A program made the translations under genes and the position numbers. Positions 8,537 through 54,227 of a stretch of 64,000 bases of DNA are shown here, piece after piece. The notes beneath the pieces are model-generated. The model had not been told where the DNA came from. It made no database searches and worked only from the letters and a program-made list of their open reading frames with translations. Each line of letters begins with the position of its first letter. The first letter of the stretch is position 1. This stretch comes from Oscillospiraceae bacterium (GTDB lineage Bacteria > Bacillota > Clostridia > Oscillospirales > Oscillospiraceae), in NCBI GenBank assembly GCA_902778665.1, contig CACYYN010000005.1:1-64000 (forward strand), in the 5' to 3' direction.

Positions 8537-8538
8537 AA

Positions 8539-37882: not shown

Positions 37883-37928
37883 CTGCGACTCGCTAAGAGC
37901 CGGGCAGAGCCCGGTTGCTCGCTTGCAT
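37883..37928 (+). repeat. Palindromic repeat family 2, copy 1
   Basis: 46-base element whose core GCCGGGC-AGA-GCCCGG forms a hairpin, ending TTGCTCGCTTGCAT. An inverted copy with 41 of 46 matching bases is at 39864-39909. Three of the five changes fall in the 3-base loop, so the stem is conserved. Confidence 0.8.
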
Positions 37929-38007
37929 ACCCATAAAGGGCACAGGTGGCTCTGCGGGCGCTCATCGCTTCGCGTCGTAGTTGTGTAGTTGGGAGAGAAT
38001 AATCTGA

Positions 38008-39954
38008 ATGCAACCACATTATGTTAAGTTAAAGGGTGCTCCTTCTCCGAAGAGAGAATATGTCCTGGAGTACAGCAATCTCTGCGGCGGTCTCAATCTC
38101 TGGGATCCGGATTACCGGCTGAAGAATAATGAGAGCCCGGAGATGAAAAATCTCCTCTGGCGAAACGGCATGCTCTGCTCCCGCAAGGGGCAGAGATTTC
38201 TGTGTGAATATCAGCTTGGGCAAGGCTTTGCAGCTTATCCACGGTTATGGCATGGGTGCATTTTCGCCCACATCGGGGCGAATATTTTTTGCTTCCGGGT
38301 GGAGGAGGCTCGCTCTGAGTCTTCAGCATCTGGCGCGGAGACAACAGATGCCACGATATCAGATGTCTATCCGCGCTTAAATGAGAGTGGCACTGAGACT
38401 GCTGCAGAGAGTGGGTTCGTTGCGTCTCCCATCCTCCTTGCCACCGGCATTCCGAAGATTCGTGGCACGTTTTTTACCTTCAGCGACAAGCTCTATTACA
38501 AGACCAAAGGAGCCTATAAGGAGATCACGGCAACACAGGTGGACGGGGAATGGAGTTTTGCATGCAATGAGGTTTTCCCCTATGAGCCGGTGATCGTCAT
38601 CAACGCCAATCCGGCAACGGGAGCCGGAGATCTTTACCAGCCGGAAAACCGCATGAGCAGCAGAAAGACAGCCTGGTACAACGCCGTGGACGGAGCAAAA
38701 ACCTATTATTTGCCTGTCAAGGCGGAGAGGGTCACCTATGTAGAGGTTGGGGGTTATCACGTCACATCCGGCTGGAGCTATGATCCGCAATACGGGAGAG
38801 TGCTGTTTGATGTGGCGCCTCCGGTCACGGATCCGCCCACAAATAACACGGTTCGCATTACCTATGAATTGGATAATACGGAAGCTCAGAAATCAATTGA
38901 TGATTGCCGTTATGTCGCTGTCTACGGCGGCACAGGAGAATTGTGTGTTGTGATGGCAGGATCTGAAGATCAGCCCAATGCCTACTTCTGGAGCGGGAAC
39001 TCCAGCCTCAAGATGGATGCAAGCTACTTCCCGATGGAACAAGTTCAACTCGCCGGTTCGAGTGAAGAGCGCATCACTGCCTTCGGCAAACAGCAGGACA
39101 ACCTGATCATCTTCAAGGAGGGCTCCGTGGGCAAAACCACCCTGGGCACGCAGACGATTAACGGCCGCATCTTTATTGATCTGCCCTATGTGCCCGTCAA
39201 CGCCTCCATCGGCTGCGACCTGCCCTGGAGCATTCAGATTGTGGAGAACAACCTGGTCTTTGCCAACCGGAAGGGGATTTATATGCTGCTGGACACCACC
39301 CCGGCCAACGAGAACAACATCGTCTCACTCAGCAGGAAGATCAACGGGAGTGCGGAGAGACCGGGGTATTTGTTTGATGTAGGTGCTCGCTCGCAGTCTG
39401 TTGCAAGCAAGCTGGGAACGTCGCGCGTCAGGTCACGCGTCGCATTGCTCAATGAGGACCTGGTGTGCTCCTGCGATGACGGAACCCATTATTATCTGAC
39501 GGCGGGAGGTCACACCTGGGCGTGGAACTATGAGCTCTCCGGCTGGAAGGATCCTTCCTGGTTTCTTCTCACCAACACCAATGCAGTGGCTTTGATTTGT
39601 GAGGCAGGGGACATTTTCCATATCAATGGGGCCGGTAGCTTAACTGGTTTACATAATGATTGTAATGACTATGGAGAACCGATTGAAAGACTCTTCCGAT
39701 TTCCCACCATGAATTTCGGCAGCTACGACTGCCGAAAGAATGTGAACTCTGTGCTTGTCACGCTGGGGGCTTATGAATTGGAAGATACTGAGCTCTGGTA
39801 TCTGTGGAGGCCGAAGCTCGCTCGCAGAGCACAGCAGGCGGCTCGTGCGCGCCTGCAGGCGCCATGCAAGCGAGCAACCGGGCGGAGCCCGGCACTTGGC
39901 GAGTCGCAGGGGACAACGCTTCTGCCACGATTTCAGATGTCTATCCGAGCTTAA
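38008..39954 (+). CDS. Phage structural protein (stabilisation/tail-type) carrying repeat insertions, C-terminus altered
   Basis: 648 residues, beta-rich, without signal peptide. It opens with YSNLCGGLNLWDPDYRLKNNESPEMKNLLWRNGMLCSRKGQ, the layout of podovirus head-completion or stabilisation proteins that open with a list of specification residues. Repeat-derived peptides interrupt it: EARSESSASGAETTDATISDVYPRLNE (about 99-126) and ARSQSVASK (about 460). A composite element near 39805-39959 shifts the frame, replacing the natural C-terminus with LARRAQQAARARLQ... The displaced C-terminal codons run on to 40175. GGGAGAG precedes ATG 38008. Probably defective or altered. Confidence 0.6.
   Translation: MQPHYVKLKGAPSPKREYVLEYSNLCGGLNLWDPDYRLKNNESPEMKNLLWRNGMLCSRKGQRFLCEYQLGQGFAAYPRLWHGCIFAHIGANIFCFRVEEARSESSASGAETTDATISDVYPRLNESGTETAAESGFVASPILLATGIPKIRGTFFTFSDKLYYKTKGAYKEITATQVDGEWSFACNEVFPYEPVIVINANPATGAGDLYQPENRMSSRKTAWYNAVDGAKTYYLPVKAERVTYVEVGGYHVTSGWSYDPQYGRVLFDVAPPVTDPPTNNTVRITYELDNTEAQKSIDDCRYVAVYGGTGELCVVMAGSEDQPNAYFWSGNSSLKMDASYFPMEQVQLAGSSEERITAFGKQQDNLIIFKEGSVGKTTLGTQTINGRIFIDLPYVPVNASIGCDLPWSIQIVENNLVFANRKGIYMLLDTTPANENNIVSLSRKINGSAERPGYLFDVGARSQSVASKLGTSRVRSRVALLNEDLVCSCDDGTHYYLTAGGHTWAWNYELSGWKDPSWFLLTNTNAVALICEAGDIFHINGAGSLTGLHNDCNDYGEPIERLFRFPTMNFGSYDCRKNVNSVLVTLGAYELEDTELWYLWRPKLARRAQQAARARLQAPCKRATGRSPALGESQGTTLLPRFQMSIRA
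38333..38376 (+). repeat. Palindromic repeat family 1, copy a (inside a gene)
   Basis: Stem GCGCGG (38333-38338) with CCGCGC (38371-38376), inner stem AGACA (38339-38343) with TGTCT (38364-38368), then TTAAATGAG. Other copies have GCTCGG / CCGAGC at the same place: both arms changed together. It is translated in frame as part of the structural protein. Confidence 0.75.
39385..39412 (+). repeat. Palindromic insert within the structural gene
   Basis: GCTCGCTCGCA (39385-39395) can pair with TGCAAGCAAGC (39402-39412) with two G-T wobbles and a 6-base loop. It encodes ARSQSVASK and resembles the left part of the element near 39825. Confidence 0.55.
39864..39909 (-). repeat. Palindromic repeat family 2, copy 2 (inverted)
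   Basis: Reverse-complement counterpart of 37883-37928 with 41 of 46 matching bases. It is nested inside a family 1-type composite element and lies within the reading frame at the 3' end of the structural gene. Confidence 0.8.
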
Positions 39955-39959
39955 ATGAG
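39912..39959 (+). repeat. Palindromic repeat family 1, copy b (right half)
   Basis: Shares GACAAC..GCCACGAT.TCAGATGTCTATCC.. with copy a (38340-38385) over 46-48 bases, ending CCGAGCTTAAATGAG. The left outer arm is missing, apparently replaced by the nested family 2 copy. Confidence 0.75.
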
Positions 39960-40175
39960 GGAGTTCAAAGAGATACTATGGAAACACAGGGGACGATTCT
40001 CTGTGTTCCGGGCACCAGGCCGGACAGCACAAGGGTCCCGTCAGTATTTCGCCGGAGACCTATGTGCAGACGTGTCCTGCACTTCACCATGAAGCTCATC
40101 AATTCAAATCTGAATGAGGACTTTGAGCTCGTCGGGGCTCAGGTGTTCTACAATGTGCAAGGCAGGTTGAGATAA
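39955..40175 (+). pseudogene. Displaced C-terminal codons of the phage structural gene
   Basis: In a different frame from the main gene, this segment encodes METQGTILCVPGTRPD ... VLHFTMKLINSNLNEDFELVGAQVFYNVQGRLR, a plausible natural C-terminus for a phage head-completion protein. It contains a family 3 repeat (39984-40006). It can be translated only as an extension of an internal frame starting near 39804, so it is probably not made as part of the full protein. Confidence 0.55.
39984..40006 (+). repeat. Palindromic repeat family 3, copy 1
   Basis: ACACAGGGGACGATTCT followed by CTGTGT: ACACAG at one end pairs with CTGTGT at the other. The inverted copy at 50330-50351 differs at one base. Such GGGGACGRTTCTCTGTG sequences are reminiscent of REP elements. 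Confidence 0.7.
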
Positions 40176-40198
40176 AAAAACCAGCACTAATGTGCTGG
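40174..40198 (-). terminator. Terminator of the toxin-antitoxin operon
   Basis: On the minus strand CCAGCAC / GTGCTGG with a 4-base loop (40198-40181) is followed by TTTTTTT, 17 bases after the antitoxin stop. Confidence 0.8.
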
Positions 40199-40214
40199 CA
40201 AAATTTAGGTTCTA

Positions 40215-40433
40215 TTAAACTATGGCATTGAGGTTGTCCCAATCAATTTCAGATTCTTCGATAAATCCGCTTTTTTCTGCTGCTAATAACGATTCTTCTT
40301 CCTGAGAAGTCAACTTTGTAAAATCAGGATCCCAGGCGATAAGAAGTTTTTTGATAAACTGGTATGCAAATTCCTGATCAGCTTCCGGCAGGAGGTTCAT
40401 CATTTCAGCAGCGTGCATCACTGTTTCAGACAA
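40215..40433 (-). CDS. Antitoxin of a RelE-like pair
   Basis: 72-residue acidic helical protein (MSETVMHAAEMMNLLPEADQEFAYQFIKKLL ... IEESEIDWDNLNAIV) of a family found next to RelE/ParE toxins. It lies 17 bases downstream of the toxin gene on the same strand, so gene order is toxin first. It is cargo within the prophage, possibly maintaining it. Confidence 0.7.
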   Translation of the reverse strand: MSETVMHAAEMMNLLPEADQEFAYQFIKKLLIAWDPDFTKLTSQEEESLLAAEKSGFIEESEIDWDNLNAIV

Positions 40434-40450
40434 GAATAATTCCCCCTTTC

Positions 40451-40711
40451 CTATTTATAAACATCCCCACGATTTCCAATATCAATAATATAAAGTATTT
40501 CCAGTTCACCTTCAAGACCATATTTGTAAATTATTCTCCATCCGCCTACACGTAATCGGCTTCTACCCTCAGCAGAACCCTGCATAGGTTTGGTGTCTCC
40601 AACGGGTGGTTTTTGTGTCAGACCGGCAATTGCTGATCGAATACGGTCAACAGATTTTCGATCAAGTTTTGCTAAAAATTTAAGAGAGTCCTTTGAGTAT
40701 TTTATAAGCAC
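40451..40711 (-). CDS. RelE/ParE-type toxin
   Basis: 86 residues from GTG 40711, chosen because GAAGAAGGTG lies just upstream; earlier in-frame starts give unrelated residues. It shows the RelE fold pattern: IKYSKDSLKFLAKLDRKSVDRIRSAIAGL, MQGSAEGRSRLRVGGWRIIYKY and LEILYIIDIGNRGDVYK. The toxin is expected to cleave ribosome-bound mRNA. It is paired with the antitoxin downstream. Confidence 0.82.
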   Translation of the reverse strand: MLIKYSKDSLKFLAKLDRKSVDRIRSAIAGLTQKPPVGDTKPMQGSAEGRSRLRVGGWRIIYKYGLEGELEILYIIDIGNRGDVYK

Positions 40712-40786
40712 AAAATCACCTTCTTCAATATCTGAATTATAAAGATTTTTAATGAAATGGTCAAGAACCAAATGACAGGAGCAAAA

Positions 40787-41104
40787 ATGGAAGAACAAAA
40801 AAAGAATCCTGAAACCCTCGGCGGGCTGTGCAGTCACATGCTCTCATCCCCGATGCCCACATCGGATGATCCGAGGGATGCATTGCTGGAGCTTTGCGTC
40901 AGACCCACATGTGCTGCCTATATTGTCTATGGCATGATACAAAAAGCTGCCAGGGGGGATACCTCGGCAGCCAAGTTTATTAAAGAAATCAACGGAGAAG
41001 GGCCTTCATTGGACGAAAACGGTATTACCGATCTGCGGTCTCTCAGCGATGTTGTCCTCTGCCGTCTGGCAGGCTTCACGCTGGAGAAGCTGATGCTTCA
41101 GTGA
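40787..41104 (+). CDS. Small terminase subunit-like protein
   Basis: 105 residues from ATG 40787, with ACAGGAG upstream. Helical sequence with AAYIVYGMIQKAARGDTSAAKFIKEINGE, a block common in small terminase or terminase-associated phage proteins. It precedes the large terminase gene but is separated from it by two host-like genes on the opposite strand. Role in DNA recognition for packaging is inferred. Confidence 0.55.
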   Translation: MEEQKKNPETLGGLCSHMLSSPMPTSDDPRDALLELCVRPTCAAYIVYGMIQKAARGDTSAAKFIKEINGEGPSLDENGITDLRSLSDVVLCRLAGFTLEKLMLQ

Positions 41105-41172
41105 GGCGTGATCTCGGCAAACCGGAATTGCCTTTTATGGAGACACGCCACTTTTCGCTTCGGAAAAAAGGA

Positions 41173-41700
41173 TCACTTATTATTCTGTTTTGCGATCTGC
41201 TCTGTAAGATGGATGCTTCTGCTGTTCCACGGTACCAGAGCATCGCAGGTCAGCGACTTTGAAAAAATAAGGGTTGGATACTCCTGACAGGCAGGATCCT
41301 GTTGATTCAGATAGGGCTCACAGACATAGCCGTTGGCTTTATAAAATGCGATCGCGGTATCATTGTGCTCCGCATCCGTATAGAGCCGTGCAAACCGGTA
41401 TCCTCTGGCGGCCGCCATCTCCTCAAACCGCTTCAGAGCTTCTGAGCCGAGGTGCTTTCTCCGGAAACCTTCCCGGATGCCGAACCAGCCAAGCCAGGCA
41501 CTTTCAGGGTCTTCGGGATAGGAGTAGATCCCGATGATGCCCACACATACGTCGTCCTCGCAGATCAGATAATACTCGAGGGGGGAGGCATCCTCAAGAG
41601 AGTCTTTATAGTTCCTCTCGGCGCTCTCTCCGGGGAACAGTTCCTCCTGTATTTCAACGGCATAGCGGAGGTTGCTCTCCGTAATTCGTTCCAGCTTCAT
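41173..41700 (-). CDS. GNAT acetyltransferase (cargo)
   Basis: 175 residues. The GNAT core shows VGIIGIYSYPED, WLGWFGIREGFRRKHLGSEALKRFEEMA (acetyl-CoA pyrophosphate loop) and NDTAIAFYKANGYV. Inserted between the small and large terminase genes in the opposite direction. Substrate unknown. GGAGAGAAGAAC precedes the ATG. Confidence 0.85.
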   Translation of the reverse strand: MKLERITESNLRYAVEIQEELFPGESAERNYKDSLEDASPLEYYLICEDDVCVGIIGIYSYPEDPESAWLGWFGIREGFRRKHLGSEALKRFEEMAAARGYRFARLYTDAEHNDTAIAFYKANGYVCEPYLNQQDPACQEYPTLIFSKSLTCDALVPWNSRSIHLTEQIAKQNNK

Positions 41701-41994
41701 GTTCTTCTCTCCTGACAGCGGGTGCTTTTCAAAAACAATATATCATACTTTTCCGATCTAGTGAATTCTTAATTCTCACTTCGGGCCGGATGAATGATTA
41801 ATCCTCTTCTGCGGGGGCTGATGCAGGCACATCCGGATCATATGCAGGAACATCATATCATACCAAATATCACAGAACCGTCAAACAGTTCTGACCTGTT
41901 GAACGGATTATAACATGACATACATCATCCTGCAAATACCGCTTTTTTGACAACTCCAAAAAATCCATACCAAACTATCTCATCAAATCCCGAT

Positions 41995-42795
41995 TTACAG
42001 CACGAACGATTCCAGATCATCCGGAATAAACAGGTTCCCGTGATAATACTGAGCTCCTTCTTCAAGATACAGGCGCTTTCTGTCGGCCAGATTTTTGTCT
42101 TCTGTATGGTAGAGGAGCAGATTCCTGACATTCAGTTCCTCCGCCAGCTGGCATGCATCCTTTACCGTAGAATGGTGCTTCTCATACGGATCAAAGAGTT
42201 CCCGCTCTGAATAGAGACAGAATGCCTCATGAAGCAGCCACTCGCTGTTTCTCGCATACGCTTCTTCGCAGTCCTCGTAAGGCTCGTCCCCGCAGCAGGT
42301 CAGTTTTTTCCCATCCCCCAGATCCATGCAGAATCCATACTGCTTCGCCTTGGTGGATCGGATATCAAAAAAGGCGGTCTCATGACCGATCACATTCATC
42401 GCTTCGCCGTCATGGACTTCTATCAGATGCAGTCTGTCATCGATGAATCTTGTCTCTTTCTCAAGCAGCAGCTTCCCGGCCATATCACGGATCAGAGCCA
42501 GAACTTCTTTGTGTGAGTAAATACAGGCTTCTCCTTCATACTTCCCGTGGTTCATAAACTGACAGATCATCCGAACCATCCAGATGATTCCCATCAAGTG
42601 GTCGATATGTTTATGCGTCACAAAGATATGGCGCACATCCGTCCAGTTATAGCCTGCATGCTTCAGCTGATGAAGGACTGCACTTCCGCCTCCGCCATCC
42701 ACCATAAAATATTGGCCCTTGTCCTCGATGATAAAACATGTATTATAGCACTCCGTCACAAGCGCATTGCCTGTTCCAAGCATTGTTAGTTTCAT
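41995..42795 (-). CDS. Metallo-beta-lactamase-fold hydrolase (RNase Z-like)
   Basis: 266 residues. It begins MKLTMLGTGNALVTECYNTCF and has the metal motif THKHIDHLMG, with further ligand positions around CCGDEPYEDCEEAY, LLHEAF and LLLYHTED. The overall layout is that of ElaC/RNase Z-like phosphodiesterases. It may process tRNA-like or other phosphodiester substrates. It is a second opposite-strand gene wedged between the terminase genes, 294 bases from the GNAT gene; that gap holds nothing I can recognise. Confidence 0.8.
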   Translation of the reverse strand: MKLTMLGTGNALVTECYNTCFIIEDKGQYFMVDGGGGSAVLHQLKHAGYNWTDVRHIFVTHKHIDHLMGIIWMVRMICQFMNHGKYEGEACIYSHKEVLALIRDMAGKLLLEKETRFIDDRLHLIEVHDGEAMNVIGHETAFFDIRSTKAKQYGFCMDLGDGKKLTCCGDEPYEDCEEAYARNSEWLLHEAFCLYSERELFDPYEKHHSTVKDACQLAEELNVRNLLLYHTEDKNLADRKRLYLEEGAQYYHGNLFIPDDLESFVL

Positions 42796-42872
42796 CTGTT
42801 GTCTCCGTGAAAGTTCGATTTGTCCGGATCATTATACCCTTAAGAACGAAATCCTGTAAAGGAGATTTTTTT

Positions 42873-44396
42873 ATGAACAATGACCTGCTTGCCGAGCTGG
42901 CTCGAAGAGAGTTGGCCCGGCGTTATTATTCGGAATACCTGGCATATTCCTATGGAGCAAACTGGATCAGGACAAAGCTTTCGTCCTATCTGGCACAGAG
43001 AATCCAGAATTTTATAGAGACGGATACCGGTCATGCCTATGACATTCTGATCATCGAATGCCCTCCACAGCACGGCAAGAGCATGACCGTGAGTGAGAGC
43101 CTGCCAAGCTGGTACCTGGGCAAACATCCGGAGAGAAACATCATCCTGGCATCCTATGATTCAGACTTTGCCGAACGCTTCTGCCGGAAGAATAAGGAGA
43201 AAATTAAAAACGTTGGCAGGCATCTGTTCGGCATCGAGATCGGGGCTATTGACCGGGCGGGGGAGTTTGAACTGAGTAACGGGAAAGGAAGAATGATATC
43301 CCGAGGCATCATGTCCGGCATCACGGGCAACCCGGCAAACCTGATTATCATCGATGACCCTGTGAAGAACCAGCAGGAGGCAGATTCTCCGGCATACAGA
43401 AACCGTGTATGGTCCGAATGGCAGGCATCTCTGAAGAGCCGCCTTGCTGCCAAGGGGAAGGTTGTGGTCATCATGACCCCATGGACGGATGACGACCTGG
43501 CTGCCAGAATCATCCGGAATGAAAAGAATGTGCAGCTGCTTCGCCTGCCGGTGGAGGCGGAAGAAAACGATCCTCTGGGCAGAGAAGTCGGTCAGGCACT
43601 TTGCCCGGAATTGGGCAAAGATGATCAATGGCTGGCAGATTTTAAGGCTTCCTATATCTCCGACCCGCAGGGTGGGCAGAGAGCGTGGACGGCTCTGTAT
43701 CAGTGCTCCCCGAGACAGGAGGAGGGGAATATCGTGCGGAGGAACTGGTTCCGGTTCTACGAACCGAGGGGACAGAAAACAGGGAATAGGGCAAAGGGCA
43801 TAGGGATTAGGGACTCAGAATATGTGGAGGAGCCGGAATCCTATGGTACGGAATTGATCTCTGTGGATGCCTCCTTCAAAGGGGATGATACCAGCGACTT
43901 TGTTTCCATCCAGGTATGGGGCAAACGGGCGAAGGATTATTATCTGCGGTATTGCCTGAATAAGCACCTCAACTTCCCGGATACGCTGGAGGCGATTAAA
44001 ACCATCTATCGGTTGTTCCCGAGGGCGAGGACTGTATTGATCGAAGAGGCTGCCAACGGCCCGGCCATCATCCAGACGCTGCAGCGGGAGATGTTCATCA
44101 TCCCGGTCACGCCTCTTGGAGGCAAGATCAGCCGGGTGAATGCCATCTCGCCGGCAATCGAGTCCGGGCATGTGTTCCTGCCGGATCCTGCAAAGGCTCC
44201 CTGGGTGACAGATTATATTGACCAGTGGGTCGCATTTCCAAATTCCAAACACGATGACATGGTGGATGCCACCAGCCAGGCCCTTGCCCGGATGATTTAT
44301 TCCTCCGGTGAGGTCTGGGAGGAAAAGGAGCAGAAGCCGGTGTTTGACGTGGAAAGATTATTTGATCCTTATAACTATAACAGGAGGGACTATTAA
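42873..44396 (+). CDS. Terminase large subunit
   Basis: 507 residues from ATG 42873 (AAAGGAGA upstream). Walker A ECPPQHGKS (62-70), Walker B NLIIIDDP, coupling motif IMTPWTDDDL, and the nuclease domain with SVDASFKGDDTSDF, IEEAANGPAI and HDDMVDATSQA. It is the ATP-driven packaging motor and DNA-cutting nuclease. Residues about 299-316 (RGQKTGNRAKGIGIRDSE) are encoded by a GGGGACAG..AGGGAATAGGG-type repeat, inserted in frame in the linker between ATPase and nuclease. Confidence 0.92.
   Translation: MNNDLLAELARRELARRYYSEYLAYSYGANWIRTKLSSYLAQRIQNFIETDTGHAYDILIIECPPQHGKSMTVSESLPSWYLGKHPERNIILASYDSDFAERFCRKNKEKIKNVGRHLFGIEIGAIDRAGEFELSNGKGRMISRGIMSGITGNPANLIIIDDPVKNQQEADSPAYRNRVWSEWQASLKSRLAAKGKVVVIMTPWTDDDLAARIIRNEKNVQLLRLPVEAEENDPLGREVGQALCPELGKDDQWLADFKASYISDPQGGQRAWTALYQCSPRQEEGNIVRRNWFRFYEPRGQKTGNRAKGIGIRDSEYVEEPESYGTELISVDASFKGDDTSDFVSIQVWGKRAKDYYLRYCLNKHLNFPDTLEAIKTIYRLFPRARTVLIEEAANGPAIIQTLQREMFIIPVTPLGGKISRVNAISPAIESGHVFLPDPAKAPWVTDYIDQWVAFPNSKHDDMVDATSQALARMIYSSGEVWEEKEQKPVFDVERLFDPYNYNRRDY
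43769..43816 (+). repeat. Repeat family 4 copy inside terL
   Basis: GGGGACAGAAAACAGGGAAT followed by AGGGCA and AGGGATTAGGG units. It matches the intergenic sequence at 48891-48930 and keeps the terminase frame open. Confidence 0.75.
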
Positions 44397-44398
44397 AT

Positions 44399-44680
44399 AT
44401 GGAAACAGCTAAAACCTATGAGGAGTATGTCCTCCTGGAACTGGAGGAAAAGAAGGAGCAGCTGAAAAGACTCACCGAGGCCAGCAGGAGCTGCATCGAG
44501 GTCATGGACGATGTGAACTCTTTTCTGGATATCATGAAGAAGCATCTGAATCTGCATAAGGCTGCAGACGGGAAGAAGATCATCACCATGGAATATATCT
44601 TTGAAGAATATGATCCGGATGAGTTCAAACTTCTGAAAGAGCTGTTCCATCTGGAAGTGAAGGGGGAAAGCAATGAATGA
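44399..44680 (+). CDS. Phage hypothetical protein, 93 aa
   Basis: Acidic helical protein starting METAKTYEEYVLLELEEKKEQLKRLTEA, with coiled-coil character. It lies 2 bases after the terL stop, with GGAGGGAC upstream, and overlaps the next gene by 8 bases. Virion or packaging accessory role possible; not recognised. Confidence 0.6.
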   Translation: METAKTYEEYVLLELEEKKEQLKRLTEASRSCIEVMDDVNSFLDIMKKHLNLHKAADGKKIITMEYIFEEYDPDEFKLLKELFHLEVKGESNE

Positions 44681-44894: not shown

Positions 44895-44972
44895 TAACTT
44901 GAATCCGTGAAACTTCTCCGCCTTTTCGGGAATAAGGATAATGGCAATGTAGAGCTAATCTGCTTTGCATGG

Positions 44973-46441: not shown

Positions 46442-48304
46442 TTGAACGATTATCTTCGAGATGCCTGGAAATACTATGAGTACGGGCGATTGTATAACAA
46501 CAACCTGACTCCGAATCAGTACACCATGGTCAACACCAACAATGAATTTTTCATCGGCAACCAGTGGATCCATATGCCGGATAATGAGGCCATGCGTAGG
46601 TTGGCTAAACCTACATTTAATATCATCAAGAGAGTCACGTCTTTGTTTGTAGCAAGCCTGACTTCCAGTAATACCACAATTTCATTTGAGCCGCTTTCTT
46701 ATCAGAATGATGGAGAAGCGGCTTCTTTTGCGACAGCTGAAGTTAGAAATCTGCTGGAGAAATTCAAAATGGACTATCGCATCAGGGATGCTTTGTTTGA
46801 CGGCGCTATCACCGGTGACTATGCAGCTCACTTCTTCTGGAATCCGGAAGCAAGGCCATACGGCGGAGCCTTCGGAGAGTACAAGGGCGAGATCGAGATG
46901 GAGCTGATCGACGGCATCAACGTCATGTTCGGCAATCCGAATTGCCGTGATGTGGAGAAGCAACCCTATGTGCTGATTGTGGGCAGAGATACCGTAGAAA
47001 ACCTGAAGCGGGAATATGACTACTGGAAACCAAGACAGATTAAAGAAGGACCGGACAAAGATATCATCCACCCGGATGCCGAGACATATAACTTTACGGG
47101 TATCGGAGGGAAGACGGAAATCCACGGCGACGATGATAAAACCGGAAAGGCTTTATTTGTGTACCTGTACACCAAAGTCTGGAAGGACGAGCAGTACATT
47201 AATCCCAAAACAGGTCTTGTGGAGATCAGGAAGATCCAAACGGTTCACGTGACCAAGGCTACAAGACACTGCAATATCTTTGAAGATGTGGACACCGGTT
47301 TGAGTCGTTATCCTCTTGCATGGGGAAACTGGCAGAAGCAGCGCAATCAGTATCACGGGAGAGCACTGGTCACGGAAATTATCCCGAATCAGATCTTCAT
47401 CAACCAGATGATGGCTATGGTCTTCCGGCATCTGCAAACCCAGGCATTCCCAACCAAGATTTATAACGCAGACCTTATACCCAATATCAGCAACGAAGTC
47501 GGCACAGCGATCGGGGTGAGGAATCTGCAGCCCGGGCAGCAGATCGGAGAAGTGATTTCCACCATACCGGCTGCCAATATGTCTGCACAGATCATCCAGG
47601 CGATTGATCTCTGCATGGCATACACGAAAGAGTGCCTGGGTGCTACGGATGCCCAGATGGGGTCTGTGAGACCGGACAATACTTCTGCCCTGATGGTGCT
47701 GCAGAATGCATCTGAGGTTCCGTTGGAAAACACCCGTGCAGGTTTACATGAGTGGGTGGAAGACATTGGTGCCATTCTGCTGGACATGATGGGAACCTAT
47801 TACGGTAAGCGGCCGATTGTTCGGGAGAAAATGATGGAAGAGCCTGTGCTGGGTGCTGACGGCAAACAGGTGATTGACCCGATGACCGGCAAACCTGCGA
47901 GCACGAAGGTGACCAGGCGTGTTGTGGAAGAGTTTGATTTCTCGATCTTCAAACATCTCTGGCTGAATATCTCCGTCGATGTGGGCGCTACTACATACTA
48001 CAGCGAGATCGCGATGGTACAGACGTTAGATAACCTCCGGAGAGACGGAACGCTGAATATCATCGAATATCTGGAGCGAATGCCGGATAAGCTGATCACG
48101 AGGAAGCAGGAGCTGATTGAGTCTTTGAAGAAGCAGGCGAATCTGCCGGTTTCTGCACCGGAGACAGGTAAAGGAGGTGAGGACATTGGTCATGTAGTGG
48201 GCAGTGAGCTGGACGCTGCAAAGAAAATAGCCCAGTTACCGACAAGCATGCAGGCAAAGTATAACGATTTGCCGAAGACGGCGCAAAGAGCGCTGATCAA
48301 ATAA
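46442..48304 (+). CDS. Phage portal protein
   Basis: 620 residues from TTG 46442, preceded by AAGGAG at 46431-46436. Pattern of P22-type portals: WKYYEYGRLYNNNLTPNQYTMVNTNNEFFIGNQW, KPTFNIIKRVTSLFVASL, NQMMAMVFRHLQTQAFPTKIYN and NTSALMVLQNASEVPLENTRAGLHEWVEDIG. It forms the dodecameric DNA gate of the head. It is followed by scaffold and capsid genes in canonical order. Confidence 0.88.
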   Translation: MNDYLRDAWKYYEYGRLYNNNLTPNQYTMVNTNNEFFIGNQWIHMPDNEAMRRLAKPTFNIIKRVTSLFVASLTSSNTTISFEPLSYQNDGEAASFATAEVRNLLEKFKMDYRIRDALFDGAITGDYAAHFFWNPEARPYGGAFGEYKGEIEMELIDGINVMFGNPNCRDVEKQPYVLIVGRDTVENLKREYDYWKPRQIKEGPDKDIIHPDAETYNFTGIGGKTEIHGDDDKTGKALFVYLYTKVWKDEQYINPKTGLVEIRKIQTVHVTKATRHCNIFEDVDTGLSRYPLAWGNWQKQRNQYHGRALVTEIIPNQIFINQMMAMVFRHLQTQAFPTKIYNADLIPNISNEVGTAIGVRNLQPGQQIGEVISTIPAANMSAQIIQAIDLCMAYTKECLGATDAQMGSVRPDNTSALMVLQNASEVPLENTRAGLHEWVEDIGAILLDMMGTYYGKRPIVREKMMEEPVLGADGKQVIDPMTGKPASTKVTRRVVEEFDFSIFKHLWLNISVDVGATTYYSEIAMVQTLDNLRRDGTLNIIEYLERMPDKLITRKQELIESLKKQANLPVSAPETGKGGEDIGHVVGSELDAAKKIAQLPTSMQAKYNDLPKTAQRALIK

Positions 48305-48326
48305 TGATGGAGGATACAAAACAAAA

Positions 48327-48890
48327 ATGGATGAACAACTGGAATATGCGCTTGAAGGAACAGGAGCAGAAACAGCAGTACACGAGAAAACAGCTGTACA
48401 GGTTCCATCCCCGGACCCCACCCCGGAAGAAGCAACCCAAACCGGTGGGGAAGAAGAAATGAATCAAGAGAGCCCGACAGAAGGAGCTGAGAATGCTTCC
48501 GCTGCCGGGCTCTCTGCATCCACCGCAGAAGTGGTACTACCTCCCTCCCAGGGGACCGGGCCGTTGTCCGCCGAAGAGGGGAGGGGCTCAGAGGGTCGTG
48601 ACTACTATGCGGAATGGAAGGAACTGGCTGAAGCACATCCGGAGGTGGTGGGCAAGGAATTGCCCGAAGACATCTATCAGGCGTGCATGCAGAGCGATCT
48701 GCCTCCTCTTCGTGTGTATGAATCCATGATGCTGCAGAAGCAGGCGGATCAGATTTCTGCTCTTCAGCAGGAGATTGCGACTTTGAGGCAGAACGCAGAA
48801 AACACAGCGAGAGCCCCGGTAGTGGCAGCTGCCGAAGGCCCCGCAAATGAACCGGAAGACCTTTTTATGAAAGGCTTCAATTCATATTGA
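48327..48890 (+). CDS. Putative scaffolding protein
   Basis: 187 residues. The N-terminal half is disordered and Glu/Ser/Thr/Pro-rich. The C-terminal helical part carries DYYAEWKELAEAHPEVVGKELPEDIYQACMQ and a coiled coil (LQKQADQISALQQEIATLRQ). Position between portal and capsid genes and composition fit a scaffold. Function is inferred from position. Confidence 0.65.
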   Translation: MDEQLEYALEGTGAETAVHEKTAVQVPSPDPTPEEATQTGGEEEMNQESPTEGAENASAAGLSASTAEVVLPPSQGTGPLSAEEGRGSEGRDYYAEWKELAEAHPEVVGKELPEDIYQACMQSDLPPLRVYESMMLQKQADQISALQQEIATLRQNAENTARAPVVAAAEGPANEPEDLFMKGFNSY

Positions 48891-48975
48891 GGGGACAGGG
48901 GACAGGGAATAGGGAGTAGGGGATAAGGGGGCTTCCTGTGGCAGCGGGAGGCTGCCCCCTGATTCCTGTGTCCTG
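48891..48975 (+). repeat. Repeat family 4, intergenic copy
   Basis: Starts directly at the scaffold stop: GGGGACAGGGGACAGGGAAT, then AGGGAGTAGGGGATAAGGGG, a GGCAGCGGGAGGCTGCC hairpin, and an inverted CCTGTGTCCTGTACCC. The outer parts can pair. Similar to sequences at 43769-43816 and 52870-52917. Confidence 0.7.
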
Positions 48976-49050
48976 TACCCTTTCTCAACAGACGAATCAT
49001 TTTAAACCAATAAAAATCTAATTAAGAAAAATAATGGAGGATTAACAATT

Positions 49051-50196
49051 ATGGCAGGTGGAATGAATCTAGCAACCAAATATCTCAGAGAAGTAGATGA
49101 ACGCTGGGTTTCGGAGTCCCAGGCGGCACTGGTAACAGGCAATGCCTTTGAATATAAGGGCGACCAGACCTTTGTAGTTTACAGTATTCCGTATGCGCCG
49201 CTGAATGACTACACCAGAAGCGGCATGAACCGTTACGGCAACCCCAATGACCTGAGCCGAAATATCCAGACCCTGAAGGTCACCCAAGACAAGGGCTTCA
49301 GCTTCGTGATTGACCGTGGAGATTATGTCCAGAGTGAGTTTGTCAGCAACCCGGGTAAGAGCCTGGCAAGGGAGCTCAAGGAGGTTATCGTCCCGGCTTA
49401 TGACCGGTACTGCTTCCGCACGATGGCATTTTCCGCTATTGACAACGGGCACAATGCCACGACCGAAGTGACAAAGGCGAATGCCCATGCCATGCTTCTC
49501 AATGGCATTGAACACATGAGCGACCGCAACGTGCCGATTGATAACTGCTACGCTTTTTGCACGTATCATTACGGCAACCTGCTGATGCAGGACCCTTCGT
49601 TTATCCGCAATGGCAATTCTTCTCAGGAGATGCTGAAGACCGGGCGGATCGGCATGGTAGACGGCATTGAAATTGTCCTGGTGCCACACAGCAAGCTGCC
49701 GGCAGGGTCTGCATTCCTGCTGGTGCATAAGGATGCCTGCGTGGCACCGAGACAGCTGGAAAAATATGTGACTCACGAGGACCCTCCCGGACTGTCCGGC
49801 ACTCTCTGCGAAGGCCGCGTGCTTTATGACTGCTTCGTTCTCGACGAAAAGGCAGACGGAATTTACTACCACGGAGGTCAGCCTGTGCTGAAGGATATTC
49901 CTTTCATTACGTCCGCAACAAATCCCGGAAAATCTTCTATCATCATGAACATGGAGAAGGAGAAGGACACCAACAAGTGGTATTACATCACGGCTGAGGA
50001 CCATGCTTCTCTCCCGGAGGTAACTTACGGCACTGCCATTGATCCCACCAGCGGGGCATGGGCAGGTGCAGTGGAGATCACCGGTATGGAGATGGAAATC
50101 ACGCCTCCTGAGGGACACACCCGCATCAAGGTTGTGGAAGTGCTCCGCAGCATGAAACCGATCGGCGTTTCCGAGAGGAAACTGAATATCGGATGA
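49051..50196 (+). CDS. Major capsid protein
   Basis: 381 residues. It starts MAGGMNLATKYLREVDERWVSESQAALVTG, a typical capsid N-arm for this phage group, followed by VTQDKGFSFVIDRGDY and EVIVPAYDRYCFRTMAFSA of an HK97-like fold. A C-terminal beta domain of about 90 residues (ITSATNPGKSS ... EGHTRIKVVEVLRSM) may be a decoration-type domain. ATGGAGG is upstream. It is placed after portal and scaffold as expected. Confidence 0.82.
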   Translation: MAGGMNLATKYLREVDERWVSESQAALVTGNAFEYKGDQTFVVYSIPYAPLNDYTRSGMNRYGNPNDLSRNIQTLKVTQDKGFSFVIDRGDYVQSEFVSNPGKSLARELKEVIVPAYDRYCFRTMAFSAIDNGHNATTEVTKANAHAMLLNGIEHMSDRNVPIDNCYAFCTYHYGNLLMQDPSFIRNGNSSQEMLKTGRIGMVDGIEIVLVPHSKLPAGSAFLLVHKDACVAPRQLEKYVTHEDPPGLSGTLCEGRVLYDCFVLDEKADGIYYHGGQPVLKDIPFITSATNPGKSSIIMNMEKEKDTNKWYYITAEDHASLPEVTYGTAIDPTSGAWAGAVEITGMEMEITPPEGHTRIKVVEVLRSMKPIGVSERKLNIG

Positions 50197-50206
50197 TGAG
50201 GTTTTT

Positions 50207-50277
50207 ACCTCGTAAGTAGTGCAATTAAAGGGCTCGGATGACAGCATTGTACCTCGAACCTGCTGCTCTATCCGAGC
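50207..50277 (+). repeat. Palindromic repeat family 1, copy c
   Basis: Begins ACCTCGTAA..AGTGCA a few bases after the capsid stop, then stem GCTCGGAT (50232-50239) with ATCCGAGC (50270-50277) and inner CAGC / GCTG. The loop keeps GTACCTCG, as in copies d and e. Confidence 0.8.
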
Positions 50278-50329
50278 TTTTATGGAGGAAAAGTTGTCAG
50301 TTGCATAAGTCTCTGATGAGACTGTAAAA

Positions 50330-50351
50330 ACACAGAGAACCGTCCCCTGTG
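50330..50351 (-). repeat. Palindromic repeat family 3, copy 2 (inverted)
   Basis: Reverse complement of 39984-40006 with one mismatch in 22 bases. Lies just before the connector gene's ribosome binding site. Confidence 0.75.
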
Positions 50352-50369
50352 CGAATTAGGAGGAGAAAA

Positions 50370-50978
50370 GTGACTTATGGCGAATTGAAAAACAGAGTAT
50401 TGGAGCTCATCTTCAGTTACAGCGTGGCAGGGAGTCAAATCCCTGCCACGTATAACAATCAGGCGGATTATATCGCTATGATTCCGGGGCTGGTGAACAA
50501 CGGGCAGATGGATATTGTTACCAGCGTGAAACGCATTCCGGCAATTGTGCATCTGGAAGACCTGGAGCAGGAACAAGTGGGAGAGCGAATACTTTATAAG
50601 CTCCCGGAAGATTGTTGGCTCCCTTTTACAGGTGGGCTTCTTCTGAAGAGAAACAGAAGGTATGAGCGTTTCTTTGGTTACCGGTTTATCTCCGGTAATA
50701 TCGAACTGCCGTGTCATCATCCGCCTGACTTGGCACTGGAATATTGGCGATATCCGGAGAGAGTGAGTTCTGAGACAGGTGATGACGTTGAACTGGACAA
50801 CACTCCTGATGTGCATGAGTGCCTGGTGTTCTATGTGGCAGCCCATCTGCTCGCTTATGATGATGCTTACCGATACACCGTGTTTCTGAATATGTACGAA
50901 GAACGAATCAGCCGTTTGAGAGAACTTGTCTGGATTGAGCCCGGACCCATTGAGGATGTTTACAGGAGGAGAAAATGA
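50370..50978 (+). CDS. Head-tail connector protein
   Basis: 202 residues from GTG 50370, chosen for AGGAGGAG just upstream. MTYGELKNRVLELIFSYSV and DVHECLVFYVAAHLLAYDDAYRYTVFLNMYEERI are characteristic of gp4-like head-completion/adaptor proteins. It overlaps the next gene by 4 bases. It follows the capsid gene as expected. Confidence 0.7.
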   Translation: MTYGELKNRVLELIFSYSVAGSQIPATYNNQADYIAMIPGLVNNGQMDIVTSVKRIPAIVHLEDLEQEQVGERILYKLPEDCWLPFTGGLLLKRNRRYERFFGYRFISGNIELPCHHPPDLALEYWRYPERVSSETGDDVELDNTPDVHECLVFYVAAHLLAYDDAYRYTVFLNMYEERISRLRELVWIEPGPIEDVYRRRK

Positions 50979-51640
50979 GCAAACTGACCATTTGGAACAC
51001 GTTAAAGCACAAAGGTTTCAGCGATGAGGCCGCCGCTGCCATCCTCGGCAACATGGAGGCGGAGAGCAACTGCATCAGCATCCGGGTACAGGGTGACTTT
51101 ACTGACGAATATGCGGATTCCGCCTTCTACACCCGCATGGTGGACGAGGGAAAGGTGAGCCGAAGCGCCTTCATTCATTCAGGCCCCGGCGGCGGAGGCT
51201 ACGGCCTCCTGCAGTGGACGTATCCCACCCGGAAGGCCGGGCTTTACGATCTGGCACAGTCACAGGGCGCCTCCGTCGGAGATGAGACCATCCAGCTGGA
51301 ATGGTTTATGAAAGAGCTGTGGCAGGAGGAGTATCAGAGCGTGCGGGAGACGCTCCTGCACTGCCCGTCTATCCGCGCCTGCTCAGACGTGCTGGTGAAG
51401 GTCTTCCTCCGCCCTGCAGATCAGAGTGAGGCGGCGCTGCAGAAGCGTGCCGATCTCGCACAGGGATTATTCCGGCAGTTTGTAGAGCCGAAAGCGGAGG
51501 AGGCAGACACTGCATCAAAAGAAGATGCCGGGATGGTGAAGATCACGGAAGAAGAGTTCCGTATCTATTCCAGAGCAGTTCTGGTTGTGCTGACACTGCG
51601 AGATCTGCTGCAGGCAATGGAGGAATTTAAGTATGAGTGA
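50975..51640 (+). CDS. Phage tail lysozyme-domain protein
   Basis: 221 residues. The N-terminal 150 residues match the phage tail lysozyme domain (TLKHKGFSDEAAAAILGNMEAESN, GGGGYGLLQWTYPTRKAGLYD, VKVFLRPA), a muramidase-like fold that breaches peptidoglycan at infection or lysis; the Glu in MEAES is the probable acid. A C-terminal helical tail ends RAVLVVLTLRDLLQAMEEF. Eight-base overlap with the next gene. Confidence 0.8.
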   Translation: MSKLTIWNTLKHKGFSDEAAAAILGNMEAESNCISIRVQGDFTDEYADSAFYTRMVDEGKVSRSAFIHSGPGGGGYGLLQWTYPTRKAGLYDLAQSQGASVGDETIQLEWFMKELWQEEYQSVRETLLHCPSIRACSDVLVKVFLRPADQSEAALQKRADLAQGLFRQFVEPKAEEADTASKEDAGMVKITEEEFRIYSRAVLVVLTLRDLLQAMEEFKYE

Positions 51641-51851
51641 TGCGATACTGGTAGCGATTATCACGAGTGCTGTGACATTGTTCGGGGTTATTCTCGCGAA
51701 CAGTAAGGCAGCTGCGGTGACGAACAATGAAATCAAGCATCTGACGGAGGAAGTGAAAAAGCACAACAACTTCGCCCAAAGGATGCCGATTGTGGAAGTG
51801 CAACTGGGAGAGTTAATGAAAAGGGTGGAAGCTCTGGAAAGAAAAAGCTGA
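51633..51851 (+). CDS. Small TM plus coiled-coil phage protein
   Basis: 72 residues. N-terminal helix AILVAIITSAVTLFGVILANS, then a heptad-rich segment (VEVQLGELMKRVEALERK). Its place next to lysozyme and holin suggests a lysis accessory protein (XhlA-like), by position only. Confidence 0.6.
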   Translation: MSDAILVAIITSAVTLFGVILANSKAAAVTNNEIKHLTEEVKKHNNFAQRMPIVEVQLGELMKRVEALERKS

Positions 51852-51895
51852 CTGCAAAAGCAGCCAGCGAGGTGAGACATCTATTTAGAAATCGG

Positions 51896-52111
51896 TTAAG
51901 ACCAGGCCATTTGCAATTCACGCTTGTTGTTGGCACAGTCTGTGAGGTATAGATTGATCAGAGTCTGATACGGAAGACCATATTGTTCGGAAAGATGTTT
52001 AAAATAATCGATCGTCTCTTCGTTGATATTAATCGTAACCTGTTTTTTCATACGATTGGTATAGGGATTTTTGCGAGGATTCAGTTTTTCAATATCATAT
52101 TCTTCTCTCAT
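51896..52111 (-). CDS. brnA: BrnA-type antitoxin
   Basis: 71 residues from ATG 52111 (TGGAGGAAAC upstream). C-terminal ribbon-helix-helix: KKQVTININEETIDYFKHLSEQYGLPYQTLINLYLTDCANN, the BrnA/CopG-type DNA-binding fold that neutralises BrnT and represses the operon. It begins one base after the brnT stop codon ends. Confidence 0.85.
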   Translation of the reverse strand: MREEYDIEKLNPRKNPYTNRMKKQVTININEETIDYFKHLSEQYGLPYQTLINLYLTDCANNKRELQMAWS

Positions 52112-52112
52112 T

Positions 52113-52412
52113 TCAGTTTCCTCCATTCCAGTCGGCGTAGGTTTCACGTTCACGCTTCGTAGCTTTTCTCGCAGAAATAATACGAATAATATCATCGTTT
52201 CCGCGATAACAATGACTGACAATACAGAGCCTTTCAGCCTGAGACAGTCCGAGAATCAGAAATCTTTCTTCAGAATCAGAGTGGTCGGGATCATCAAAAA
52301 CAATGGCTTCCGTGTCATAGAAAACTGTCACAGCCTCGGAAAAATCTATGCCATGCTTTTGGATGTTAATCCGATTCTTGTTTTCATCCCAAGTAAATTC
52401 TATTTCTTTCAC
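52113..52412 (-). CDS. brnT: BrnT-type toxin
   Basis: 99 residues with the BrnT signature: EFTWDENKNRINIQKHGIDFSEAVTVF, ERFLILGLSQAERLCIVSHCYRG and IIRIISARKATKRERETY. It is a RelE-fold ribonuclease that inhibits translation. Promoter-like sequence lies in the AT-rich stretch upstream. Cargo on the strand opposite to the phage late genes. Confidence 0.88.
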   Translation of the reverse strand: MKEIEFTWDENKNRINIQKHGIDFSEAVTVFYDTEAIVFDDPDHSDSEERFLILGLSQAERLCIVSHCYRGNDDIIRIISARKATKRERETYADWNGGN

Positions 52413-52575
52413 AATTATAATATACCTATAAAATCAATATGTCAAGAAAATGATTCTTTGCATTCCCAATTAGTAAAATTTCAGAAATATGCTGCCTCTT
52501 AAATATAACACACATCATTTGAAGCAACAAGAGAAAAGCCATCTCAGATGGCAAAGGAGATAAATGGAGGCTTTT

Positions 52576-52791
52576 ATGAACAAACAGGATATTATACGCA
52601 AACTGACCAGCCGCAAGTTCTGGCTGGCTATTGCAGCGTTTATTACAGAGCTGATTGTTGCCTTTAAAGGCGACGCAGAGACGGCAGAAACCATTTCCGG
52701 CATGATTATGGCCGGCGCAACAGTAATAGCCTATGTGCTTGGGGAAGGTCTGATCGATGCAGCGAATGTGAGTGATTTATGCTCGATATAA
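52576..52791 (+). CDS. Holin
   Basis: 71 residues from ATG 52576 (TGGAGG upstream; ATG 52564 also possible). Two hydrophobic helices: KFWLAIAAFITELIVAF and ISGMIMAGATVIAYVLGEGLID. This matches small class II holins of Gram-positive phages (MNKQDIIRKLTSRKFWLA start). Forms the membrane lesion for lysis. Confidence 0.82.
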   Translation: MNKQDIIRKLTSRKFWLAIAAFITELIVAFKGDAETAETISGMIMAGATVIAYVLGEGLIDAANVSDLCSI

Positions 52792-52804
52792 GGTTAAGCA
52801 AGTT

Positions 52805-52850
52805 GCTCGGTAGACAATATTGTACCTCGTACTGTCTGCTCTATCCGAGC
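52805..52850 (+). repeat. Palindromic repeat family 1, copy d
   Basis: Stem GCTCGG (52805-52810) with CCGAGC (52845-52850), inner AGACA (52812-52816) with TGTCT (52833-52837), loop with GTACCTCGTAC, then TTAAAT. It starts 14 bases after the holin stop. Confidence 0.8.
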
Positions 52851-52869
52851 TTAAATTAATATGAAATGA

Positions 52870-52917
52870 ACAGGGAAGAGGACAGGGGTGTATCCTGTTC
52901 CCTGAACCCTGTATCCT
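52870..52917 (+). repeat. Repeat family 4, hairpin copy
   Basis: CAGGGAAGAGGACAGGG and an opposed TCCTGTTCCCTG..CCCTGTATCC can fold back on each other. It ends just before the ribosome binding site of the next gene. Confidence 0.6.
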
Positions 52918-52934
52918 AAAAACCGGAGGTTTTT

Positions 52935-54104
52935 ATGGCAAAAGCATCGAGGCCGGGGAATCAGGCGGTGGCCGGCATTGCCGGGACATCGACCACGTCC
53001 CCGACGTATTACAAAAGTGAAGCTGCAGGTTCTGCAGCAGGAAGCACAGGAAAGAGCTCATCCTCCGGGACGGGCTCTTCTTCCAATAAGAGTACAACAA
53101 GTAATAAGAGCAGTACAAGTACCTCAGTGAAGAATTCATATTCCAGCAGTGTGAAATCGAGTTCAGGAGGGAGTGCGGGCAATTCGGCTTTACCCGGTGA
53201 GGTGGAAGTTCCGTACAGTGACAAGTTCTATGCCGCACTGGCTGCCGGGGTGCCCAATGGGATTAATGCCAGCGAGTTCATTGCAAAGGATAAGGCTGCG
53301 GATGCGGCGAAGGGTGTGGTTGCAGGGGCAAAAGCGAATATCATGCCGGGCAAAGTGGCACCCATTGATTATGTGGATATCGCCCGGCAGAAAGCGGAGC
53401 TGGCAGCGAGAGAAAATCAGGAAAAGGGCAGAGCTGTGCTGGAGTCTGATTATGCTGTTGCCCAGGGGGTCAAGGCTCTCAATCGGAATCTGCAGGACAG
53501 CAGAGCAAAGTTCCAAACCCAGCGCAATCAGGTTGAGGCCGATGAGGCGAAAGCTCTGGACAATCAGGTTCTGTATGCGGAAGCAAGAGGCGACCGGGGC
53601 GGAATCGGGAAAACCCAGTACGGCGGTATCCGGAACACGGCTGCCACAAACCGCCAGGTGGTCAACTCAGCCGAGGTAAAGCTGCAGACAGACACGGCCA
53701 GGCAGATTGCTGACCTTCAGGCGCAGGGAGAATTTGAAAAGGCAGACAAGGTGCTTGCGATCAGCAACAGGTATCTCACCGAGCTTCAGAACCTGGAAAA
53801 GTGGACAAAAGAGAAGAATGTTGGCGTACAGGAGTTTAACGCAAAGCTCCGGCAGTGGGAGAACGAGTACCTGCTGAAGGTAGGGGAATATCTCACAGAC
53901 ACAGAACTGCAGGCGGCGAAGCTGTTCGGTGTTGCAGCAAACGGTGCCGAGACGGCGGAAACCCGGAATGCAGTGAATGACCGCTATGCGGAAGGAGCAC
54001 GTGCCATGATGAACGCCGGCATCGTGCCGAGTGCTTCTCAATTGGAAGCGATGGGTTGGACGCCGGAGCAGTACTGGATTTACAGGATGGCGAACGGGGG
54101 CTGA
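52935..54104 (+). CDS. Phage structural/ejection-type protein with Ser/Thr-rich N-terminus
   Basis: 389 residues. Residues 1-85 are low complexity (KSSSSGTGSSSNKSTTS). The rest is helical and Ala/Gln/Glu-rich (VKALNRNLQDSRAKFQTQRNQVEADEAKAL, KLQTDTARQIADLQAQGEFEKADKVLAISN). The C-terminus is YAEGARAMMNAGIVPSASQLEAMGWTPEQYWIYRMANGG. This resembles internal or ejection proteins of short-tailed phages, by composition. Last gene of the module. Confidence 0.6.
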   Translation: MAKASRPGNQAVAGIAGTSTTSPTYYKSEAAGSAAGSTGKSSSSGTGSSSNKSTTSNKSSTSTSVKNSYSSSVKSSSGGSAGNSALPGEVEVPYSDKFYAALAAGVPNGINASEFIAKDKAADAAKGVVAGAKANIMPGKVAPIDYVDIARQKAELAARENQEKGRAVLESDYAVAQGVKALNRNLQDSRAKFQTQRNQVEADEAKALDNQVLYAEARGDRGGIGKTQYGGIRNTAATNRQVVNSAEVKLQTDTARQIADLQAQGEFEKADKVLAISNRYLTELQNLEKWTKEKNVGVQEFNAKLRQWENEYLLKVGEYLTDTELQAAKLFGVAANGAETAETRNAVNDRYAEGARAMMNAGIVPSASQLEAMGWTPEQYWIYRMANGG

Positions 54105-54174
54105 CCTCGTAATCAGTGCACTCAAAATGCTCGGGAGACAACACATTACCTCGTAATGAGATGTCTATCCGAGC
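54104..54174 (+). repeat. Palindromic repeat family 1, copy e
   Basis: Starts at the last base of the stop codon with ACCTCGTAA..AGTGCA, as in copy c. Stem GCTCGG (54129-54134) with CCGAGC (54169-54174), inner AGACA (54136-54140) with TGTCT (54162-54166), loop ATTACCTCGTAATG. Confidence 0.8.
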
Positions 54175-54213
54175 TAAATAAAAGAAAATGATAGGGTTAG
54201 GGTAAAGATGAAA

Positions 54214-54227
54214 TGCTCTATCCGAGC
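54214..54227 (+). repeat. Palindromic repeat family 1, partial copy f
   Basis: Only the right arm, TGCTCTATCCGAGC, identical to the right arm of copies c and d. It marks the last phage-type sequence before the host ABC locus. Confidence 0.6.

Follow-up and report, generated by a model that had tools for sequence, protein, structure and literature searches.

Several families of short, mostly palindromic DNA elements have probably colonized one family of prophages in a ruminant-gut lineage of Oscillospiraceae, as non-autonomous mobile DNA of the kind represented by repetitive extragenic palindromes (REPs), miniature inverted-repeat transposable elements (MITEs) and Rickettsia palindromic elements (RPEs). 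The elements were found in a prophage within a 64,000-nucleotide stretch of an Oscillospiraceae bacterium (GenBank assembly GCA_902778665.1, contig CACYYN010000005.1, positions 1 to 64,000; hereafter the window). They are multi-copy, lie dispersed at unrelated sites, occupy these sites variably in related phages and form composites. The genome to which the window belongs (G000; 2.73 Mb in 79 contigs, 84% complete) falls in the same genus as a ruminant Oscillospiraceae metagenome-assembled genome (MAG). Below, C-numbers denote contigs of this genome unless stated, L-numbers extracted loci and W the window prophage.

A first-pass annotation of the window had described at least four families across the prophage, and repeats were present at all the places it gave. 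F1 is a hairpin of ~53 nt in which stem sequence varies and pairing is kept. It was searched for with two models, R1, built mainly from phage copies, and R2, built exclusively from chromosomal ones; matches echoing a palindrome on the reverse strand were dropped from both lists. On the + strand, F1 lies in frame in a virion structural gene at 38331–38381 (site A; stem GCGCGG/CCGCGC), at 39901–39955 in the same gene (site C, where F2 replaces its left arm), soon after the capsid stop codon at 50205–50282 (R1 core 50230–50282, with a 5' CTCG..AGTGC box), upstream of a tail-position gene (52935–54104, +; labeled by position alone, with no Pfam match) at 52803–52855, and after that gene at 54104–54179 (R1 core 54127–54179). 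The copies annotated at 38333, 39912, 50232, 52805 and 54129 thus stood, and the one at 54214 proved to be a truncated right end only (54214–54236, +). Outside the prophage, the window contained no F1 at E<0.4 with R1 or R2, the one weak R1 match being at 16039 (E 0.45).

The two window copies of F2, an intergenic one at 37883–37928 (–) and the left portion of the site C composite at 39864–39909 (+), are mutually inverted and 89% complementary over 46 nt. The two F3 copies, at 39985–40007 (+; a GGGGACGGTTCT-type hairpin that is part of the C-terminal coding frame of the virion gene) and 50329–50351 (–), are likewise inverted and 96% complementary over 23 nt, so that both annotated inverted pairs were confirmed. 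F4 forms a 60-nt (20-codon) in-frame insertion at 43766–43825 (+) in the terminase large subunit gene (42738–44396, +) and a hairpin at 48889–48985 (+) between the scaffold-position gene and the gene for the major head protein, or major capsid protein (MCP; 49051–50196, +). These two copies, annotated at 43769 and 48891, are 80% alike over 40 nt; the third, annotated at 52870, is a looser match (52866–52925, +) and a candidate member only. A fifth family had been overlooked: F5, a coding module at 39384–39442 (+; site B), of which 40 nt are identical in the C59 loci L010 and L016. Sister prophages held at least two further families. The F6 palindrome (CCCTCATGGGGAGGGG...CAGCTTTGCTGTGGTGGGTGAGG) lies between genes in C50 and C57 (MCP junction, L119, L116) and, by eye, in apparently coding linkers of other phages (L118, L127, L061). 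F7, a repeat of ~150 nt (...GAATGTCATATCAGGTAAACGCC...TGACATG...GTGCCGTTTTGACGA), occurs in L053, L054 and L121 at the same junction upstream of the tail-position gene.

The F1 hairpin is conserved through compensatory change. Perfect stems of at least six pairs, in many different sequences, were present in 72 of 83 copies (45 phage, 38 other), compared to a mean of 24.6 copies and a maximum of 35 over 300 rounds when stem partners were shuffled; as the copies were found by models that reward pairing, the count of stems is somewhat inflated. The 45 phage copies exclude L061:3495, L123, L126 (same contig as L060), L127–L131, L058:9257 and 11891, and L059:16793 and 17089, and the 38 others include 14 from G173, G169, G164 and G195 with surroundings unchecked. 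In alignment A4, seven cells were changed on both stem sides (1.9 in shuffles), and the inner stem of alignment A2 had three double-changed cells (1.0 in shuffles). Phage copies mostly carry GCTCGG/CCGAGC stems and chromosomal copies of the same genome mostly longer, GCGCGTGA/TCACGCGC-like ones. By eye, an additional unpaired box (CTCGnnnnnAGTGC) can be made out 5' to the stem, and the loop contains a box resembling it.

When nine stretches were folded and compared with shuffled sequences, two F1 copies (z –4.9 and –3.0), two F4 hairpins (–4.2 at 48889, –2.8 at 52866) and F3 (–2.7) folded better than the shuffles. The label palindromic, given to all families at first, is therefore borne out by folding for these and not for F2, the F2-F1 composite, F5 or the terminase F4. 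Short GC-rich hairpins are common and some stretches fold no better than shuffles, so an artefact of chance or base composition was considered; it is contradicted by the stem covariation, by the dozens of copies and by pattern shuffles, in which the window counts for F1, F2 and F3 were each reached in 0 of 100 dinucleotide shuffles. We regard this explanation as refuted, its likelihood being negligible. attC sites and CRISPR-like repeats were also considered and dropped, by eye only.

Several related prophages in one genome made occupied and empty sites comparable. Close relatives of the window terminase were found in two MAGs titled Oscillospiraceae, RGIG2288 (G195, a 3.5-Mb genome from goat duodenum) and RGIG4485 (G173, from roe deer omasum and assigned to the window's genus), and in three IMG/VR contigs at 75–87% identity. 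A fourth IMG/VR match (L056, 22%) yielded no F1 when searched and was left out of the set. Within the window's own genome, further terminases occur on C39, C51, C55 and C57 (89–95% identical over their main pieces) and orthologues of other window phage genes on C13, C15, C48, C50, C59, C60 and C65. Capsid proteins are 96–98% identical among those contigs that have one; other genes are less alike, some below 60%. Decay of some sister prophages is possible, as two of the terminase copies are interrupted by stop codons: one TGA and one TAA in C39:4533-6065, and one TAA in C55:12639-12974. Among 50,697 phage records, a set from which near records may be left out, all terminase matches were below 60% identity and F1 gave no blastn match.

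F1 occupancy varied at nine of the ten sites compared and was fixed at one. The junction counts exclude the phages of G168 and G172 (terminase identity 61–62%), in whose stretches neither R1 nor R2 found F1. The junction from MCP to the next gene was filled in 7 of 9 phages (in L058 by a copy detected with R2 only) and empty in C60 and L061, where both genes overlap. Occupancy was 3/10 between the scaffold-position gene and MCP, 3/9 upstream of the tail-position gene (the empty ones including C50 and C13), 4/10 between g44399 and portal (L053, L055, L059, C51), 1/8 between g50349 and lysin, and 11/11 after the tail-position gene. Inside genes, the virion-protein linkers were filled in 2/8 (site A; without F1 in C39, C51, C55, C72 of G173, L057 and L061), 3/11 (site B) and 3/11 (site C), and the linker of the portal protein (46442–48304, +) in 2/9. 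The terminase F4 also occurs in C39 and C51, with length changes, and in L055, where its presence was taken from a comparison separate from the main alignment; 11 other orthologues do not have it. The presence of the repeats at many other loci, and of orthologues with and without them, favors mobility over residues peculiar to one locus and shared by descent. We infer the movement of F1 from these filled and empty sites, no event having been observed.

Elements inside genes lengthen the reading frame and do not terminate it, with window site C as the exception. There the virion gene is split: the N-terminal frame (phrog_3287; 38008–39954, +) ends within F1, and in this prophage the C-terminal part continues in another frame (39804–40175, +). 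Fourteen of the 45 phage F1 copies lie inside reading frames, and one follows closely on the capsid stop codon, which bears out the annotated placement both after stop codons and within genes; the RPE-like insertion inside reading frames that the annotation had proposed is found, in frame, for example at the virion linkers. In five phages, eight copies distributed over sites A, B and C share one reading frame and encode ATISDVYPSLNE-like peptides; the peptide run of the F2-F1 composite, GAMQASNRAEPGTWRVAG, is identical at site C of the window and site A of L053. Copies in the portal gene and, by eye, in a primase-like gene are read in a frame different from the ATISDVYPSLNE-like one; the primase-like copies are in C48 and C55 (with D5_N and PriCT_1 in C55). 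An in-frame F5-F1 composite lies in the L053 homologue of window gene 36688–37107. The predicted structure of the insert-free virion protein (three sequences, mean pLDDT 34) was too low in confidence to place the linkers. The coding copies suggest that such small passenger sequences can remodel viral proteins and still not disrupt them.

All 45 phage F1 copies run in the direction of the phage late genes; many of these copies are non-independent through shared descent. One copy on the opposite strand, L061:3495, lies outside this set, 4.2 kb upstream of recognized phage genes. This uniform orientation, the retention of stem pairing while sequence changes and the filling of the junction after the tail-position gene in every phage would fit functional RNA or DNA signals of the late operon (mRNA 3' end protection or processing, or regulator binding) kept by selection, and in the abstract of PMC3733652 REPs are reported mainly downstream of genes, where they are plausibly transcribed. 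We consider such a role unlikely to account for the elements. Related phages often lack F1 at other junctions, almost a third of the phage copies are inside coding sequence, and at 22 loci of the window's genome without window-prophage genes the upstream open reading frame was on the same strand as F1 in 10 cases, on the opposite strand in 11 and absent in one (frames called mechanically, some of which may be spurious). Chromosomal copies facing either way argue against a strict RNA function there and for a phage-specific cause of the bias, which might be that the elements insert into phage DNA while it is single-stranded during replication, or that antisense copies are selected against. An Rfam search of 36000–55500 in the window, at E up to 0.5, matched no family at any element, and a known Rfam RNA was rejected; the sole match (54957–55008) was under its gathering score and away from the elements.

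F1 is concentrated in, and not confined to, prophage DNA. At E<=0.005 with R1 or R2, and with every place counted a single time, F1 was found in the window's own genome at 17 places in prophage DNA (18 if one on C39, E 0.0115, is included) and at 24 elsewhere, some of which could be in phage DNA unlike that of the window. With prophage DNA estimated by hand at ~115 kb, the density of F1 is ~17 times higher there than elsewhere (18 versus 24 places used). With R2 alone, 14 of 39 listed matches were on the same prophage contigs. A copy of F2 lies on C13 (L002) between two genes read by eye as aroB and aroA. The earlier statement that the flanking chromosome is free of repeats thus holds within the window but not for the genome, given the 24 other F1 places and this F2 copy. 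The spread of F1 among same-genus genomes is patchy: 4 of 25 had matches at E<=0.001 (34, 27, 5 and 1), and F1 was found in 0 of 15 other genomes of the order. A phage-type model with strict filters found it in 1 of 150 genomes of the family. In one R2 search, RGIG2288 had 121 matches and the genome of the window 34.

Composites are recurrent, F2-F1 in W, C13, C15 and L053 and F5-F1 in C39, C59 (twice), L053 (twice) and L054. Such mosaic modules, together with the several related prophages in one genome and sites that appear common by descent (the MCP junction, the terminase F4), could have arisen without any transposition, if old elements were scattered among co-resident prophages by homologous and illegitimate recombination and then partly lost. 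We find this quite improbable as a full account, given that the F2-F1 composite is at different sites of one gene in L053 (site A) and W (site C), and that F1 lies beside many different genes in loci without DNA homology to the window prophage outside the elements, although these could be other kinds of phage DNA.

In the search for a mover, F3 and F1 behaved differently with respect to the Y1 transposase family PF01797, which includes the REP-associated tyrosine transposases (RAYTs). The window's genome, at 84% completeness and with the window included, had no PF01797 match, in agreement with the first report of no RAYT-type gene in the window; 16 of 31 genus genomes searched had one. The F3 core was found beside a PF01797 gene at 2 of 11 loci scanned (L091–L100, L136), in two genomes of the same genus. 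At L098 of G173, a 253-aa PF01797 frame has three GGGGACGGTTCT core copies distributed on both sides, and at L099 of G154 one GGGGACGGTTCT core copy lies ~90 nt from the PF01797 gene. We read these genes as RAYTs from their size and flanks. The link to F3 rests on the shared 12-nt core, as the arms at L098 differ from those of window F3; on this likeness, F3 has the appearance of a REP moved by an enzyme of known type. The suggested REP/RAYT relationship is thus upheld for F3 and not for F1. No GTAG/CGTC tag was seen at the foot of the F1 stem by eye in 35 aligned copies (no count was made); in the same alignment the bases beside the stem vary and CGTC-like letters lie in the loop. In RGIG2288, where R2 matches are many, PF01797 gave one good match and two weak fragments. 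F1 may move by a mechanism other than a Y1 transposase. In C50, a GIY-YIG gene (PF01541; L116:4426-5151) comes after the tail-position gene with its F1, and an open reading frame resembling it, by sequence likeness only, occupies the same place in C13 (L124 reversed, 8257–8985); it was dropped as a candidate mover of F1, as the window has host genes at that place.

Several results weigh against the mobility of the elements. R2, run with filters off, found no F1 beside PF01797 genes at ten loci, which cover 10 of the 29 PF01797 matches; of the 12 loci covered by the run, only L134 and L135, the controls with F1, gave matches. At the loci tested, the reading of F1 as a RAYT-mobilized REP is therefore rejected. 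No autonomous partner for F1 was found in a search confined to Y1 genes. Neither exact F1 ends nor a target-site duplication could be fixed at the compared filled and empty sites, because their flanks were too diverged, and the sole chromosomal empty-site comparison, at C3:84966, yielded no usable site and was uninformative because the two flanking genes are not neighbors in the listed relatives. The invariably filled junction after the tail-position gene indicates that some copies may be inherited by descent. The outer stem of alignment A2 is invariant and uninformative on covariation, and no folding advantage over shuffled sequences was seen for the F2-F1 composite (z +0.3), F2 at 37880 (–0.6), F5 (+1.0) or the terminase F4 (–0.1). 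Recombination between prophages could also explain much of the pattern.

Under colonization by mobile elements, which we favor, the elements would be copied in trans via a single-stranded hairpin intermediate, F3 by RAYT-type transposases and F1 by some other, putative enzyme. After insertion they would be shuffled among co-resident prophages by recombination, and insertions would survive where they do little harm, just past stop codons or as stop-free frames in virion-protein linkers. More tentatively, and as a possibility we would give a minor share of our confidence, the phage family may be both habitat and vehicle for coding palindromes, with repeated frame-tolerant insertion at a limited number of late-gene junctions and linkers, co-resident prophages diversifying portal, terminase and virion proteins by module swapping, and phages ferrying elements between hosts; F1 itself would perhaps be moved by a non-Y1 mechanism. 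If phage genomes house dense palindrome families, phages could also carry them from host to host. Whether palindromes in coding sequence are freight that the host tolerates or material that it can put to use is an old question, and a host with several related prophages, in which the same genes have filled and empty sites, makes it testable on virion proteins.

Other genes of the prophage deserve mention. An iron-containing alcohol dehydrogenase gene (PF00465; 45099–46298) is located within the late operon, with a small gene on one side and the portal gene on the other, and had no match at the equivalent place in any other compared phage locus. The prophage also contains genes of the ParE (40451–40834, –) and BrnT (52113–52409, –) toxin families, both running against the phage genes. 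On its left side, a gene encoding double zinc ribbon and M78 peptidase domains (34007–35395, –) is beside an HTH regulator gene (35398–35775, –).

We compared the elements with known systems, using passages on RPEs (PMC10969869, PMC2229807), REP families (PMC3733652), REPINs (PMC3116915) and HUH diversity (PMC6006769). In the literature searched, from which subscription journals are largely missing, nothing comparable was found on phage-borne MITE, REP or RPE families. In the first four of these sources, the word phage is confined to a general abstract sentence, CRISPR remarks or a reference, so phage-borne families are not treated there, nor are they in the passages of PMC6006769. RPEs are described in the excerpts of PMC10969869 and PMC2229807 as short palindromic families of 105–146 bp, located between genes and fused in frame in protein genes, with no established mover. 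The window elements are similarly several short palindrome families, both intergenic and coding in frame, but they are shorter than RPEs (F1 core ~53 nt) and, in a gut lineage of Oscillospiraceae, are crowded into phage structural genes. As to a single conserved peptide, the ATISDVYPSLNE-like run recurs in eight copies of one virion gene, but other genes read F1 in other frames.

The likeness to REP/REPIN-RAYT systems lies, for F3, in the core held in common with hairpins flanking PF01797 genes and, for F1, in the hairpin form, the covarying stem and the preference for gene ends; F1 differs in its long conserved asymmetric loop, in the missing foot tag and in its lack of a Y1 neighbor at the ten loci. 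Bacterial MITEs (RUP, NEMIS/Correia, BOX) are also small, non-autonomous, multi-copy and hairpin-forming, and sometimes composite, as BOX elements can be, whereas for F1 a target-site duplication could not be fixed and a search of Y1 genes gave no autonomous parent. Stoperators of cluster A mycobacteriophages are short repressor sites that, like F1, repeat in one orientation at phage gene junctions; unlike F1, they are not known to form a hairpin or to lie in coding linkers. F1, which fails the RAYT-flank test in the loci tried, resembles RPEs in behavior and REPs in form.

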